This document shows positions 58,213 through 64,000 of a stretch of DNA of 64,000 nucleotides, piece after piece. Position 1 is the stretch's first letter, and every line of letters starts with the position of its first letter. The stretch lies in NCBI GenBank assembly GCA_913055805.1, contig CAJXLF010000009.1, positions 1 to 64,000 of the forward strand. The letters are read 5' to 3'. The translations under genes and the position numbers were made by a program. The notes beneath the pieces are model-generated. The model had not been told where the DNA came from. It saw nothing but the letters and a program-made list of their open reading frames with translations, and did no database searches. The stretch is from an uncultured Salinisphaerales bacterium (lineage in GTDB: Bacteria > Pseudomonadota > Gammaproteobacteria > Nevskiales > CAJXLF01).

Positions 58213-60825
58213 TCAAAGCGTTTTCAGGTACTCGATCAGGGCGTAGCGCTCTTCATCGGTAAGCACCTTGGTGAATTCATGACCTTCATTGCCCTTGCTA
58301 TACGCATGGGTGTTGTATATCGACCTATTTCGAACCTCGCCTTCACCGGGACTTACTACATATGGGGGAGCCATATAATCGGAGCCAATATTCACGGGCG
58401 ATAGAAATAGATCAAAGAAGGTGGGTAAGTTTTCGTTCCAGAAACAACTCATGGATGTGGCGTCTACTCTGGATTCACAACTTAAGCGTTCATAGTTCCA
58501 CCCGAGCTTCTGATAATCGTAAGCCCGCTGCATATCGGTATCGAACCCACGATCCCCGAGGATGGGGGATGCCTCCTGTTCCGGAACCTGTTGCCGCAAC
58601 CAGACATCTGGCCGGTCTGAAGGCTTCAGAACATCCCATATCGTGGGCACGCTGGCATTGTGGAAATAGGGGGCAGTGGCCCAAACACCGTGCAGGGGCT
58701 GAGCGGTATACCCTCCCAAAGTACCTACACGACATGTCCCTTCAACACTTTCCTCAAAAGCAGATTTCTCTTCAGGAAACACGTAATCCTCTTTAGCATC
58801 CGGGTACGCGAACCAGGAATTATTAAAGGCGTCGCCTGCTACGGAACCAATGTTTGATTGAGCCGGATCAGTGCCGATGATTTCCAACGGAACTGTATAT
58901 CCACTCATACCAGCCAAACGTGAGTCAGCCAAATAACCTTCTGTATGGATATAACGCGGTGAATAGGCGCCATGACAACCAGCGCATGAGCCATTTCCAC
59001 CCGGTGGGCGAGGAATGTCGGCATTGCCTTCTTCCGCCCAAAGGTCTTTTGAATGGAAAAGAACGGCACCTTGCTCGGCTAACCCGTGATTTATGCAATT
59101 GGGATTATCCGCAGTCTCCGGGCTCCCGTCTTCACTGGAACAATATCCGGGTGGGTAAGGCGGCGCCTCGATTGCATTAAGCCACAAATCCAGGTCCTGG
59201 AAATCCCCCTCACGAGCCTTGCTCCAGTGGCCGTCATACGGATTAGTCGAAGCGGGAAAGAAATTGCCACGCGAACTGCCAGAACTCCCGAATCCAATCC
59301 AGAGATAACGCGATTTATTGTGAGTCCACCACCATGTCGGCATATCCTGATCCCCGCCCGTGGCCGGGATGGTTGGAGTGATTTTACCCAGGTACTCGGG
59401 CCGCAGAAGATCATTTCGCCAATCAAGCGAATCCAGTTCCCGACCAAGAAGAACACTCACAATCTCCTGGTCAGCTGCATTACTACCTCGGGTTCGATTC
59501 GCCATATACGCCGGATTATTCAGCACCAGATTCAGTGAATCTTCACCGAATCGTCCATTCGCACGATCAATATCGTAGTAGGCCAACCCCAGGTCCACGT
59601 TGCTGCCATTAACACTGACGAACGTGCCATCCTGACTGCCGCCGTATAGTTCGGGGTGGCCGTCTCTATACGCACTGTTACCGAGTACTTCGCCCGTGCC
59701 TATCTGACCAATGTGGCAGGCAAAACAGGTCAGTCCTATTTTTCCTGTCCAGTTACCTTCATCATCTTTCCCCTGCACGGCAGCGATTGGCAATTGCAAA
59801 CTCCCACCATTTGTTGCATTCGGGTCTTCACCTGGCATGGGAAATGGATTGTCGTAAGGATGCGCCGGCCATCCATAACGCTCACGTGCCATTTTTTGCA
59901 GATTAGCGTTAACGTTTTCCAGGTCATCGCTCAGATCAATCCCCAGGTAAGTCATCAACCCGTAGAACCCATTACGACTGAGCACATCACCCGTAATAGA
60001 GTTGTGCAGGATGTAAACACGGCCCGCTTCAACTGCATTTCGCCACTCACCACAAGTCTGGGGCCGGGGTTTGGCGGAATACACAGCTTCCTTGCCCTGA
60101 GAAACCAGAAGTTCATTCTGCTGCCTCTGGTTCTCGAACAGTATTTCTGTTTCGCAAATCTCAAACGGATCGTTATACCAGACGGCATAGTCTGGATTAT
60201 TCAGGTTTTCGCCAGCGATCAGTTCGCGCGGATCCATGGGCAGGGGCTCGTCATCCGGCTTGCCCTCGCAATGCACGGCGGCATAGTTGCGGCCACCGTT
60301 GGCCTCCAGATCACCAAGCAGGGGGAACAGTTCATCGACGGCGCCGCTGCCGATGAGGTCGGCGCAGTTATCCGGGTTGTCCCAGCACTGCATGATGGTC
60401 TTGAGCGCCGTGTAGGGTGCACTGCCTTCGGGCCAGGGCTTGCCGCCGGAATGCGGCTCGGCCGGGTCGGTGGGCTCGATCAGTAGCAGGTTGCTTTCCA
60501 CGCCTTTGCCCAACGCCTCCCAGGCTGCGCGGGTATTGGCGTAGTCTTCCGTGGCATTTGCAGAGAGCATGAAGCGCTCAGCGTCGGGATCACTGCCGGC
60601 GATACCGGTTGGCGTATGGCAACTGCGGCAGAAATCCATATGCGGTGTAACTTCGGACGCAAAGAACTCTTCCGAGGTCGCGAACTCCGTATTGTCCTGC
60701 TCATCCGCGGGGTCGTTCGTCTGATCATTACTTCCCTGAGCTGATCCGTCACCCGATCCGCCGCAGCCGGCGAGGGTCAACAGCAGTATCGGCCAAAGAA
60801 TTCTCGACATTTCCCATCGTCGCAT
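58213..60825 (-). CDS. RoxA-like multiheme c-type cytochrome lipoprotein
   Basis: The ATG at 60823-60825 has GGAG 6 bases upstream; 870 residues. A lipobox (LTLAGC, Cys 21) and acidic linker are followed by an N-terminal CRSCH (66-70), then CFACH (367-371) and CAGCH (614-618). The segments GNGSCAGCHGAYSPRY, GVWATAPYFHNASVPTIWDVLKPSDRP and LFHSKDLWAE match my recollection of the rubber oxygenase RoxA family, periplasmic diheme dioxygenases related to MauG. Compared with RoxA (about 670 residues) it has an extra N-terminal heme segment of some 200 residues and a lipid anchor. It may oxidatively cleave polyisoprenoids or another large substrate. A second copy begins at 63701. Confidence 0.8.
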   Translation of the reverse strand: MRRWEMSRILWPILLLTLAGCGGSGDGSAQGSNDQTNDPADEQDNTEFATSEEFFASEVTPHMDFCRSCHTPTGIAGSDPDAERFMLSANATEDYANTRAAWEALGKGVESNLLLIEPTDPAEPHSGGKPWPEGSAPYTALKTIMQCWDNPDNCADLIGSGAVDELFPLLGDLEANGGRNYAAVHCEGKPDDEPLPMDPRELIAGENLNNPDYAVWYNDPFEICETEILFENQRQQNELLVSQGKEAVYSAKPRPQTCGEWRNAVEAGRVYILHNSITGDVLSRNGFYGLMTYLGIDLSDDLENVNANLQKMARERYGWPAHPYDNPFPMPGEDPNATNGGSLQLPIAAVQGKDDEGNWTGKIGLTCFACHIGQIGTGEVLGNSAYRDGHPELYGGSQDGTFVSVNGSNVDLGLAYYDIDRANGRFGEDSLNLVLNNPAYMANRTRGSNAADQEIVSVLLGRELDSLDWRNDLLRPEYLGKITPTIPATGGDQDMPTWWWTHNKSRYLWIGFGSSGSSRGNFFPASTNPYDGHWSKAREGDFQDLDLWLNAIEAPPYPPGYCSSEDGSPETADNPNCINHGLAEQGAVLFHSKDLWAEEGNADIPRPPGGNGSCAGCHGAYSPRYIHTEGYLADSRLAGMSGYTVPLEIIGTDPAQSNIGSVAGDAFNNSWFAYPDAKEDYVFPEEKSAFEESVEGTCRVGTLGGYTAQPLHGVWATAPYFHNASVPTIWDVLKPSDRPDVWLRQQVPEQEASPILGDRGFDTDMQRAYDYQKLGWNYERLSCESRVDATSMSCFWNENLPTFFDLFLSPVNIGSDYMAPPYVVSPGEGEVRNRSIYNTHAYSKGNEGHEFTKVLTDEERYALIEYLKTL

Positions 60826-60992
60826 TGTCATCTCCGAAACGGTTGCGCGCAGGCGCAGCAATACTTATTAGCTGCGCATCATCCCCGCTTGGCACTTGCG
60901 TCTCCATGGGAGTATGGGACAAACTGATTATCATTATAGGCCAGCCTCAAATACTTTATTTTTATATAAAAATCAGCTAGATATTAAACACC

Positions 60993-61997
60993 ATGAAGCC
61001 TACGGAGTATCGTCAGCCGCGCGTACCCATCGCTTATGTGATCATCACATTTGAGCAGGCCGCTGCGCGCGGAATCAGTCAGGCCCAGCTGGTTGCCGAT
61101 CTCGATTTCGATCCTGCTATTCTGCATAAGCCGGATGCGCGCATCCCGCTGTTAACCTACGGACATATGGTCGCCCGGCTATTGCGGATCAGTGATGACC
61201 CTGGCCTCGGCTATGATTTCGGCCTGCGCACAACACTGACTTCTCACGGTTTACTGGGATTTGGTCTCATGAGCCAACCCAGTCTGAGGCACGCACTGGA
61301 ACTGGGGGAGAAATTTGTGCCTCATCTGCGCAGTCCCGGATTTACGCTCAGGTTTTTCACGGAGGGCGAGGACACCGTGCTGGAAGCCCGAGAGGCCGTA
61401 CCTTATGGACCTTTGCGGCAGTATGCCTATGACATGTTGCTGGTCAGCTTTTCCGTGATTATTCGCAGCATTGCCCCTGGCATCAGGCAACAACTATGGT
61501 TTGATTGTCCGGAACCTGAGCACTATGCGCAGTACCGGAACCGCCTGCCGGAAATCCGTTTCAACATGGGCACCAATCAACTGCGGGTAAGAACTGCAGA
61601 CCTCGATATCCCGCTCAGTCACGCCAATATCACAACCGCGGAACTGGTCGCCCGGCAATGTGAAGAAGAACTGTCACGCATCGGCGCCACCGATGATCTC
61701 ATGGCGCGCGTACGGGCCATGATGATTAATGCCAATAATGGTTATCTCACCCTGGAGGAACTGGCCGGCAACATGAACACTTCTACCCGCACCCTGAAGA
61801 GAAAACTCAAGGAACACGAAACGAGTTATCAGCAGTTACTGGATGAAGCCCGCTGCCGGGACAGCATTCGCCTGCTGGAAGAAACAACGCTGCCGCTTGA
61901 CGAGATTGCCTATCGCGTAGGTTATTCGGAAAGCAGCAACTTCTGCCGCGCCTTCCAGCGCTGGACCGGCAAGGCGCCCGGCAGTTACCGACGCTAG
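60993..61997 (+). CDS. AraC family transcription regulator (OruR-like), copy 1
   Basis: A protein of 334 residues. The N-terminal ligand-binding domain (about 15-205; LTSHGLLGFGLMSQPSLRHALELG and RFNMGTNQLR) is of the Arabinose_bd type seen in OruR/ArgR regulators of proteobacterial catabolic genes. The C-terminal AraC HTH pair is at about 245-334 (AGNMNTSTRTLKRKLKEHETSY and LDEIAYRVGYSESSNFCRAFQRWTG). It is divergent from the RoxA-like gene across 167 bases and probably regulates it. Copy 2 at 62518-63546 is clearly homologous. Confidence 0.92.
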   Translation: MKPTEYRQPRVPIAYVIITFEQAAARGISQAQLVADLDFDPAILHKPDARIPLLTYGHMVARLLRISDDPGLGYDFGLRTTLTSHGLLGFGLMSQPSLRHALELGEKFVPHLRSPGFTLRFFTEGEDTVLEAREAVPYGPLRQYAYDMLLVSFSVIIRSIAPGIRQQLWFDCPEPEHYAQYRNRLPEIRFNMGTNQLRVRTADLDIPLSHANITTAELVARQCEEELSRIGATDDLMARVRAMMINANNGYLTLEELAGNMNTSTRTLKRKLKEHETSYQQLLDEARCRDSIRLLEETTLPLDEIAYRVGYSESSNFCRAFQRWTGKAPGSYRR

Positions 61998-62001
61998 AGA
62001 A

Positions 62002-62205
62002 CTAGTCGTATTCCGAATCAAACTCCGGAATACCGGCTCTGGAAATGAATCTGTAGAAGAGCCAGGCCCCCAGCATCATCACCACTGCGCATTCAATCAG
62101 CGCGATGGCGATCATGCTGTGCTGCAACAGTGCAGCGAACCCGCCGAAAAGCAGGCTCCACAGGCTCATGGTGGAAAAAATCAGGAAAACCGCTTTTGTG
62201 ATCAT
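62002..62205 (-). CDS. Small membrane protein, unknown function
   Basis: I start at the ATG at 62203-62205, preceded by GGGAGTCATACC, giving 67 residues; the frame continues to 62232 without a ribosome binding site. Two transmembrane helices (about 5-27 and 31-52) are followed by a short cytoplasmic tail ending EFDSEYD. I do not recognise the family. It sits between the araC copies and converges on copy 1 with 4 bases between the stops. Confidence 0.65.
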   Translation of the reverse strand: MITKAVFLIFSTMSLWSLLFGGFAALLQHSMIAIALIECAVVMMLGAWLFYRFISRAGIPEFDSEYD

Positions 62206-62375
62206 GGTATGACTCCCGAAAAGCCTATCCATGGCGGTGTGTGTATTTTTATCTGTAGTTAAGTAAAACCAATTCCGCTGAAAAAAACAAGAAAAATCTG
62301 CTGTGTCGGATTCGGCAATGCATGCTGAACAGCTCTGGCCCGAATAGATAAGTAATTAGACACTTTTAGCCATTA

Positions 62376-62508
62376 CCAGGCGGCCGCCTGGCAGACATAA
62401 TGCTGGCTTCCGGAGAGTATTGCCTGGGAAGAGATTGTCCCTCCTCATGTTTTCTCCGGAAATCTCCTGCCGTTTGCGCCACTCCCGATCGGGAGTGGCG
62501 AATTTTTA
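62376..62508 (+). ncRNA. Candidate structured small RNA with intrinsic terminator
   Basis: The gap 62206-62517 has no credible gene. Its plus strand carries three nested elements. CCAGGCGG-CCGCCTGG (62376-62391) forms a short hairpin. TTCCGGAGA (62408-62416) pairs with TCTCCGGAA (62453-62461) around a loop holding TCCCTCCTC, an anti-Shine-Dalgarno-like motif. A 24-base perfect palindrome (62477-62500; CGCCACTCCCGA and its complement) is followed by AATTTTTATA, an intrinsic terminator on the plus strand although both flanking genes lie on the minus strand. The start is not defined; the AT-rich 62240-62375 region may hold the promoter. Confidence 0.4.
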
Positions 62509-62517
62509 TATGCTCCC

Positions 62518-63546
62518 CTATCGTTGCCGGCTTTGCTCACGAAAAGCAGTAGGCGTCATACCGGTCCACTTGCGAAAGGCGCGGGTGAAATTAGCGGGCT
62601 CGCTGTAACCCAGTTTGGTGGCGATCCTCTCCATGCTCAGCGTGGACTCCTTGAGCAGGCGCTTGCTTTCGCTGCTGCGTAATTCCTCGGTGAGGCTTTT
62701 ATAAGTCACACCATGCTCGCTCAGCTTCCTTTTGAGCGTACGTGTCGACATACACAAACGCTCCGCCACCGCTTTAAGATCCGGTATCTGGCCATCGGCA
62801 TAACGCAAAATCGCACGTACCTGCCCGGTCAAATCCCCCTTGAGCCCGAGTTCAGCCAGCTCCCGATCGCACTGTTCAGTCACCAGTTTGGCCGTAACCG
62901 GGTTGGCTGTTTCCAGCCGCCTGTCCAGATAGGCGGCTGGAAAGCGCAATTGATTAACCCCCATATTGAAACGCGCCCGGGGCAGGCGGGCGCGATACGA
63001 CTCGTAGTAATCCGGCTCAGGGTAGTCGAACCACATTTCCAGTTCCTGCGCATCAATCTGACGGTTGGCCAAAGCCGGAGCCATACGGGCGAGCCCCGCC
63101 AGGAACAGATCAATCATGCACTGCCGGATTGGGCCCAGCGGCAGGGTCTCCCTGACCTCGACGGCGCCAACCGATCCTTCCTGAATCAGTTGTACACTCA
63201 GATTGGGTAGCCGCAGCTGAATGAATTTGGCCCCCAGGTCTATGGCCTCACGCAGGCTGGCCGAGCTCAGCAGCCCGTAGCCCATGATGCCGTGTGAGGT
63301 GAGATGGCTGTGCAGTCCGATCTCATAGCCGATGGCCGGATAACCCGTTTGGCTCATGGCCTGGTAAAGCATGGCGCCGGCCTGCAACATGGACAGGCGG
63401 CCGTCCGGGTTATCCAGGATCGCCGGATCCACCCCGCACTGGCGCAGCAATTCGGCACGCGGCAGCCCATGCTGTTCCGCCACTTCCAGCACCAGCAACC
63501 CATAGGCTACGGGGATAAAGGGTTTGCCCAGGTCTGCGGGTTTCAT
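62518..63546 (-). CDS. AraC family transcription regulator (OruR-like), copy 2
   Basis: I start at the ATG at 63544-63546 with GGAGG upstream, giving 342 residues; an open frame continues to 63672. The start MKP matches copy 1. The ligand-binding domain has LTSHGIMGYGLLSSASLREAIDLG and RFNMGVNQLR and the HTH pair is at the C-terminus (ERLCMSTRTLKRKLSEHGVTY; MERIATKLGYSEPANFTRAFRKWTG). Identity with copy 1 is scattered through the whole length. It is divergent from the second RoxA-like gene and probably controls it. Confidence 0.92.
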   Translation of the reverse strand: MKPADLGKPFIPVAYGLLVLEVAEQHGLPRAELLRQCGVDPAILDNPDGRLSMLQAGAMLYQAMSQTGYPAIGYEIGLHSHLTSHGIMGYGLLSSASLREAIDLGAKFIQLRLPNLSVQLIQEGSVGAVEVRETLPLGPIRQCMIDLFLAGLARMAPALANRQIDAQELEMWFDYPEPDYYESYRARLPRARFNMGVNQLRFPAAYLDRRLETANPVTAKLVTEQCDRELAELGLKGDLTGQVRAILRYADGQIPDLKAVAERLCMSTRTLKRKLSEHGVTYKSLTEELRSSESKRLLKESTLSMERIATKLGYSEPANFTRAFRKWTGMTPTAFREQSRQR

Positions 63547-63596
63547 ACGCCTCCGGCTTTTCGTCGTTCTTTTATTCTTATCACACTGGCCCCAAA

Positions 63597-63613
63597 TGAC
63601 AAGAAGATTGTCA
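63597..63613. promoter_or_regulatory. Inverted repeat between araC copy 2 and the second RoxA-like gene
   Basis: TGACAA-GAAGA-TTGTCA is a perfect 6-bp inverted repeat of operator size in the 154-base divergent promoter region. AraC proteins usually bind direct repeats, so its role is unclear. I found no matching repeat in the promoter region of copy 1. Confidence 0.3.
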
Positions 63614-63700
63614 CCCATGCGACTCACAATTACATTGCCGCCAAGCGCATAGTGGCCATATTCAAGAGCCATGGCTCAATAAAAAATGTTGGAGAGAGCA

Positions 63701-64000
63701 ATGTTCAGGCGTTATTTAGTGGGCCCGGCGCTTTGCCTGGCCCTGACAGCATGTGGTGGAGGCAGCGGGGATGGTGCGCCTCATGGGTCGGCTGACACGA
63801 CGGATAGCAGTGGCGGCGATAACACCACGCAATTTGCCAGTACCGAAGCATTCTTTGAATCCGAAGTTGCCCCCGAACTGAATTTCTGCCGCAGCTGTCA
63901 TGTGCCGGGTGGCATAGCCGATGTTGAAGAAGGCCATCGCTTTTTGCTGTCACCGTCCGGTGAAGATGACTACGCCAAGACCCGTGCGGCCTGGGAGGCC
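63701..64000 (+). CDS. RoxA-like multiheme cytochrome lipoprotein, copy 2, cut by window edge
   Basis: The ATG at 63701 follows TTGGAGAGAGCA. The visible 100 codons encode a lipoprotein signal (LALTAC, Cys 18), a Gly/Ser/Asp linker, and a segment FASTEAFFESEV, FCRSCHVPGGIAD, and YAKTRAAWEA. This aligns without gaps of note to residues 50-110 of the other copy (TSEEFFASEV, FCRSCHTPTGIAG, YANTRAAWEA). It is a paralogue, sharing the extra N-terminal heme site; the catalytic part lies beyond the window. Confidence 0.88.
   Translation, partial: MFRRYLVGPALCLALTACGGGSGDGAPHGSADTTDSSGGDNTTQFASTEAFFESEVAPELNFCRSCHVPGGIADVEEGHRFLLSPSGEDDYAKTRAAWEA

Follow-up and report, generated by a model that had tools for sequence, protein, structure and literature searches.

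Two RoxC-type tri-haem proteins, predicted lipoproteins each paired with an AraC-family regulator, in an uncultured Salinisphaerales bacterium

The window analysed here is a stretch of 64,000 nucleotides at the start of contig C9, in a genome (G000) of 3.38 Mb and 21 contigs. Towards its right-hand end lie two enzyme genes, each divergent from the gene of an AraC-family regulator. RoxC1 (58213..60825, minus strand) encodes a tri-haem lipoprotein of 870 aa with the RoxA fold; the mechanical ORF reaching 60861 begins with TTG, and the coordinates used here end at 60825. A control region (60826..60992), holding the dyad GGACAAACTGATTATCA at 60917-60933, 91 bp ahead of the RoxC1 start, separates it from AraC1 (60993..61997, plus strand). 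Beyond a central segment stands AraC2 (62518..63546, minus strand), whose ORF extends as far as 63672 through an N-terminal extension that is probably spurious. Both regulators combine an Arabinose_bd domain (PF12625) with an AraC HTH. The second divergent control region (63547..63700) holds a perfect dyad, TGACAAGAAGATTGTCA, at 63597-63613, 87 bp ahead of the start of RoxC2. Only the 5' part of RoxC2 (63701..64000, plus strand) falls within the window; the complete gene occupies C9:63701-66526 and encodes 941 aa. The mirror-image order that an earlier note had read from the window, RoxC1(-) AraC1(+) AraC2(-) RoxC2(+), is confirmed on the contig, as is the homology of the second copy to the first, RoxC1 and RoxC2 matching over their full length at 46-47% identity. 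At the DNA level, the two halves share only scattered inverted coding patches, the best being 299 bp at 67%.

The central segment contains a hydrophobic ORF of 76 aa (62002..62232, minus strand) that belongs to no family, and a hairpin followed by a T-run (62477..62500, plus strand), which reads as a plus-strand terminator. A small membrane protein and a candidate RNA had been counted as parts of the system. We dropped both, as the ORF matches nothing in Pfam and has no relative in the vicinity of other RoxC genes, and the RNA has no Rfam match at Rfam's own thresholds; the 76-aa ORF is probably not part of the RoxC-AraC module.

Each enzyme carries three CXXCH sites: CRSCH, CFACH and CAGCH in RoxC1, and CRSCH, CFSCH and CAGCH in RoxC2, with CRSCH near the N-terminus in both. 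The CAGCH site proposed as a check on the second gene is therefore present, CFSCH takes the place of the expected CFACH, and CRSCH comes as a third site. The MauG-type His and an equivalent of H641 are likewise found in both proteins, and RoxC1 has the further motifs PYFHNASVP and GHEFT. In the third-haem domain, an invariant HSGGK lies 54-55 residues past the haem His of CRSCH. The suggested membrane anchoring of both enzymes is borne out by a lipobox pattern in each (LAGC with Cys at residue 21 in RoxC1; LTAC with Cys at residue 18 in RoxC2). The computed mature masses are 93 and 101 kDa, and the computed pI values 4.4 and 4.5, for RoxC1 and RoxC2, respectively. AlphaFold2 models (mean pLDDT 80.6 for RoxC1 and 74.8 for RoxC2) superimpose on the RoxA crystal structure 4b2n with Z 35.6 over 597 residues at 37% identity for RoxC1 and Z 30.3 over 606 residues at 35% identity for RoxC2, the RoxA fold covering the whole catalytic part of both. 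The next structural matches of the RoxC1 model are di-haem peroxidases and MauG, at Z 10-11. In the whole-model comparison, the N-terminal haem domain gave no clear solved fold, with matches at Z below 4 only.

The label 'RoxA-like' given to these genes thus fits their fold but not their branch. RoxC1 scores 771 bits with the NCBIfam RoxC profile NF051462, its best family although below the curated cut-off of 900, ahead of RoxB (426 bits) and of RoxA (NF050033; 412 bits against a cut-off of 1000). RoxC2 reaches 949 bits with NF051462, above the cut-off, and in our trees the pair falls in the RoxC part, outside the RoxA clade. RoxC1 and RoxC2 belong to the published RoxC branch, the largest of three Rox clusters (243/458 sequences), whose function is unknown and whose members are mostly acidic lipoproteins, often with a third N-terminal haem; a motif for such a haem, with a distal His, occurs in a substantial number of RoxCs, not in all (PMC10837239, a 2024 review). 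The window pair shares with this group the lipobox, the acidic pI, the core CXXCH pair, the MauG motif and a distal His 54-55 residues after the N-terminal haem His (54 in the Fontimonas RoxC). It differs from the group in its paired AraC and dyad, which are undescribed in the literature found. With RoxA, the two enzymes have in common the fold of the catalytic part and the haem ligands, and they depart from it in their extra N-terminal haem domain, lipid anchor and acidic pI.

In a 99-row tree, the window pair sits in a fully supported clade of eight rows, where RoxC1 pairs with L032, which comes from a Nevskia MAG, and two Stagnimonas genes join RoxC2. In a 36-row tree (LG+C20 PMSF), this clade comprises 12 rows with support 100/100. 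RoxC-type matches occur in 30/85 genomes of the order at E <= 1e-60, and no relative was found on viral contigs. With RoxA as the root, RoxB is placed among the three-haem RoxCs, a position suggesting that RoxC is not a single natural group and that the N-terminal haem domain may have been lost from RoxB. Two further genes were also seen. In Spongiibacter pelagi (L056, 5651-11074), a RoxC-like frame of ~1808 aa, with a long extension at the N-terminus, contains four CXXCH sites. A Rox gene in a MAG labelled Pedobacter, of the Bacteroidota (L095), scores best with the RoxB profile of NCBIfam, below its cut-off, and may be a binning error.

Catalytic positions of RoxA were read by ungapped alignment from W291-W292, a procedure that for positions 302 and 317 also yields the published Val and Phe of RoxB and the published Phe and Ala of the Fontimonas RoxC. 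All 12 clade members have Trp at W302, the inter-haem electron bridge in RoxA (PMC4496055), and all 12 have Leu at F301, a replacement that leaves RoxA with 14% of its activity (PMC6797691). The position of F317, which is essential in RoxA and stabilises bound O2 (PMC6797691), is occupied by Phe in nine members including RoxC2, hereafter the RoxC2 type, and by Pro in RoxC1, L032 and L126_m1. As judged from this alignment, RoxC2 retains the equivalents of both W302 and F317, and RoxC1 that of W302 only. Outside the clade, RoxA and a single small RoxC group (L049/L057) showed the combination, F317 alone being common among other RoxCs. Here the RoxC2 type differs from RoxCs as described, which are said to miss these residues; the absence of W302 and F317 is given as a RoxC difference rather than an obligatory criterion (PMC10837239). 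The segment matching RoxA A251-I255, part of the oxygen pocket, is hydrophobic in RoxA, whereas it contains acidic residues in the window clade (AADQEI, AADTEI). To judge from the alignment, in which W302 and F317 are kept and the pocket segment is acidic, RoxC2-type proteins resemble O2-binding enzymes of the RoxA kind with a more polar predicted pocket, and RoxC1 would be a variant. As the predicted pockets of the two differ, RoxC1 and RoxC2 possibly take different but related substrates.

The proposal that each enzyme has its own AraC regulator is upheld: both window regulators match PF12625 (104 and 119 bits) and HTH_18 in Pfam, and the two modules share a predicted operator. The same pairing of RoxC with a PF12625-containing AraC recurs at L032, L033, L034, L080, in both modules of L126, and, in the same orientation, at L127; in the window clade, RoxC as a rule stands beside an AraC regulator of the Arabinose_bd kind. 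The genome encodes 22 such Arabinose_bd regulators. With the CypR profile NF053784, the two window AraCs score 127 and 138 bits, against a cut-off of 500, and the QhpR profile scores above CypR.

The predicted operator is a dyad conserved upstream of RoxC, which we describe here as new. The other loci of the first set have matches with 2-3 mismatches at comparable positions of their divergent regions, and the sites of Stagnimonas and L080 served to broaden the pattern to TGMCAA-N5-TTGKCA. The 200 bp before each RoxC start were then compared with 1000 dinucleotide shuffles. The dyad lies 86-114 bp before the RoxC start in 10/11 clade members, with 0-2 mismatches in nine (0-31/1000 shuffles scoring as well) and three in L032 (205/1000); these data themselves helped to shape the pattern, and the count is inflated by relatedness among the members. 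L125, L126 and L127 were added after the dyad was first seen: L127 carries a perfect copy, the two L126 regions have one and two mismatches, and L125, which lacks an adjacent AraC of this group, also lacks the dyad. Upstream of the seven other RoxC genes of the genome and of alkB, the best matches have at least three mismatches and lie at other distances. A wider regulon was considered and rejected, since genome matches with at most one mismatch fell inside genes at 10 of the 11 places inspected. A one-mismatch dyad at C8:109578-109594 stands before a DUF1302 gene, with a Pfam-less lipoprotein of 492 aa upstream; it is a possible further target of one of the window AraCs. Near-repeats of the form GCCAATYTGCTTRTC in both AraC-RoxC regions of L126 (5300-9900, genome G050) possibly mark a second binding site. 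The arrangement resembles the alkane systems AlkR/alkM and CypR/CYP153, in which an AraC-family sensor adjoins a hydrocarbon oxygenase and, for alkR/alkM, an inverted repeat lies between the two genes (PMC8784404). The oxygenases are, however, of another kind, and the window AraCs score far below the CypR cut-off.

The earlier note's 'pair' describes the mirror locus correctly and the genome incompletely, since there are nine RoxC genes in all: two in the window, six within 28 kb of contig C1, and one on C8. Interspersed among the six on C1 (C1:408326-436646) are TetR regulators and a DUF1302-DUF1329 pair, after which come genes for an acyl-CoA dehydrogenase and an acyl-CoA ligase. DUF1302 is frequent in this genome (22 matches, 20 of them strong). 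At L098 and L125, RoxC heads a row continued by a transporter of the MMPL family and by a DUF1329 protein (65% and 55% identity between the two loci, respectively), and at L098 a DUF1302 protein lies beyond. These components, beside the L098 and L125 RoxC genes, are like those of AmeABCD, a system of DUF1302, DUF1329 and RND parts in the monoterpene metabolism of Castellaniella (PMC6394551). Directly downstream of RoxC2 (C9:66780-68177) is an AlkB-type membrane protein with an FA_desaturase domain fused to a C-terminal rubredoxin. We rejected a common transcript and keep the gene as weak context only, because a strong intrinsic terminator (C9:66548-66576) intervenes and AlkB is not close by in the neighbourhoods of window-clade relatives. 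An acyl-CoA dehydrogenase is also found near the window RoxC genes. At L080 (6086-8251), a molybdopterin-binding oxidoreductase adjoins the AraC-RoxC module and might oxidise aldehyde products. An isoprenoid-type carboxylase beside L032 was discarded, only general biotin carboxylase profiles having matched. Spurious ORFs in the high-GC DNA spoiled an automatic clustering of neighbours. Across the clade, AraC is the only conserved neighbour. The neighbourhood hints favour a hydrophobic substrate; with AraC alone conserved, the choice of any particular substrate is a guess.

From the computed gene structure, fold, haem motifs, family, phylogeny and conserved dyad, we infer the induction, outer-membrane location, oxygenase chemistry and substrate class of these proteins. 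With about even confidence, we propose that the locus holds two separately inherited sensor-enzyme modules, in which AraC-induced tri-haem oxygenases of the outer membrane would act on an unsaturated lipid or terpenoid. A hydrophobic ligand would bind the N-terminal domain of AraC, which, transcribed away from RoxC, would act at the shared dyad ~90 bp ahead of RoxC to raise roxC transcription. The RoxC lipoprotein would probably be lipid-anchored in the outer membrane. There, the N-terminal haem of the RoxA-like core would bind O2 for insertion into a C=C bond of the substrate, with electrons carried by the C-terminal haem, via the Trp bridge, and by the extra N-terminal haem. Several observations weigh against this proposal: the Pro of RoxC1 at F317, the Leu at F301 in both enzymes and the predicted acidic pocket residues; the weak dyad of L032, the missing one of L125 and the low support for the AraC2 grouping; and the behaviour of two RoxCs expressed by others, which showed neither rubber cleavage nor latex-dependent O2 uptake (PMC10837239).

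A rival substrate assignment, to unsaturated fatty acids from the environment or from the cell's lipids, deserves serious thought and is on balance unlikely. Its model is the oleate 10S-dioxygenase PA2077 of P. aeruginosa, a RoxA-related di-haem oxygenase of a smaller unsaturated lipid, in which the bridging Trp is retained and the pocket shows polar replacements (PMC4496055); the window clade likewise has the bridging Trp and polar pocket residues. Unsaturated fatty acids have been suggested by the RoxC reviewers (PMC10837239), and AlkB-rubredoxin and the acyl-CoA dehydrogenase are nearby. However, PA2077 has two haems against three in the window enzymes, the likeness to it is drawn from its published description, the clade has no conserved fatty-acid gene beside it, and AlkB stands behind a terminator and is absent near relatives. 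We consider it quite improbable that the proteins are peroxidases or MauG-like electron-transfer proteins, with the acidic pocket serving peroxide chemistry and no lipid being oxygenated. The fold common to di-haem peroxidases and MauG, the acidic residues at positions that are hydrophobic in RoxA, and the three haems would fit such a role, yet the structures are much closer to RoxA than to peroxidases or MauG, and RoxC2 has the equivalent of the Phe that stabilises bound O2 in RoxA. Poorer still is the prospect, implied by the earlier note, that these are genuine oxygenases of rubber (polyisoprene), RoxA in a surface-anchored form. The RoxA fold, the W302 and F317 equivalents of RoxC2, and the terpene-type transport genes adjoining relatives speak for it; against it stand the profiles, which put both proteins in RoxC (with RoxC1 far below the RoxA cut-off), the pI of 4.4-4.5 compared with 7.3 for RoxA (PMC10837239), the Leu in place of F301, the acidic pocket residues and the two RoxCs inactive on rubber.

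As to the origin of the arrangement, the homologous halves do stand in mirror order, but an inverted duplication in this lineage, as had been suggested, is highly improbable and we reject a recent one: in strongly supported splits of the 36-row tree, RoxC1 is sister to L126_m1 of genome G050 (65% identity, support 94/85) and RoxC2 to L127 of genome G002 (76%, 100/98), each closer than the two are mutually, and in G050 the same module types lie in tandem, RoxC(-), AraC(+), RoxC(-), AraC(+), AraC(+). The second RoxC of G050 falls in the RoxC2 half of the clade and is not a strict orthologue of RoxC2. For module 1, the AraC and RoxC trees agree, as AraC1 groups with the L126_m1 AraC, beside the G050 orthologue of RoxC1 (96/94). 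AraC2 is nearest to the AraCs beside the Stagnimonas orthologues of RoxC2, a placement that is weakly supported and compatible with the RoxC tree. With such closer relatives elsewhere and a tandem in G050, each module is an old unit inherited on its own, and mirror symmetry is one of several layouts.

Returning to the lipid or terpenoid oxygenases proposed above, we suggest, tentatively and with clear reservations, that they may form an undescribed branch of tri-haem outer-membrane oxygenases combining RoxA-like O2 residues with an acidic pocket, gated by AraC through a common operator, the two enzymes of this locus serving as a matched pair for related substrates, two in number, of lipid or terpenoid nature. 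Neither of the RoxCs assayed to date has the W302 or the F317 equivalent (PMC10837239); the RoxC2 type, having both, is a better choice for biochemistry. Lastly, the inducer of the AraC regulator is likely to be the substrate or product of its RoxC, and a clade with adjacent regulators makes the RoxC substrate question a reporter screen.
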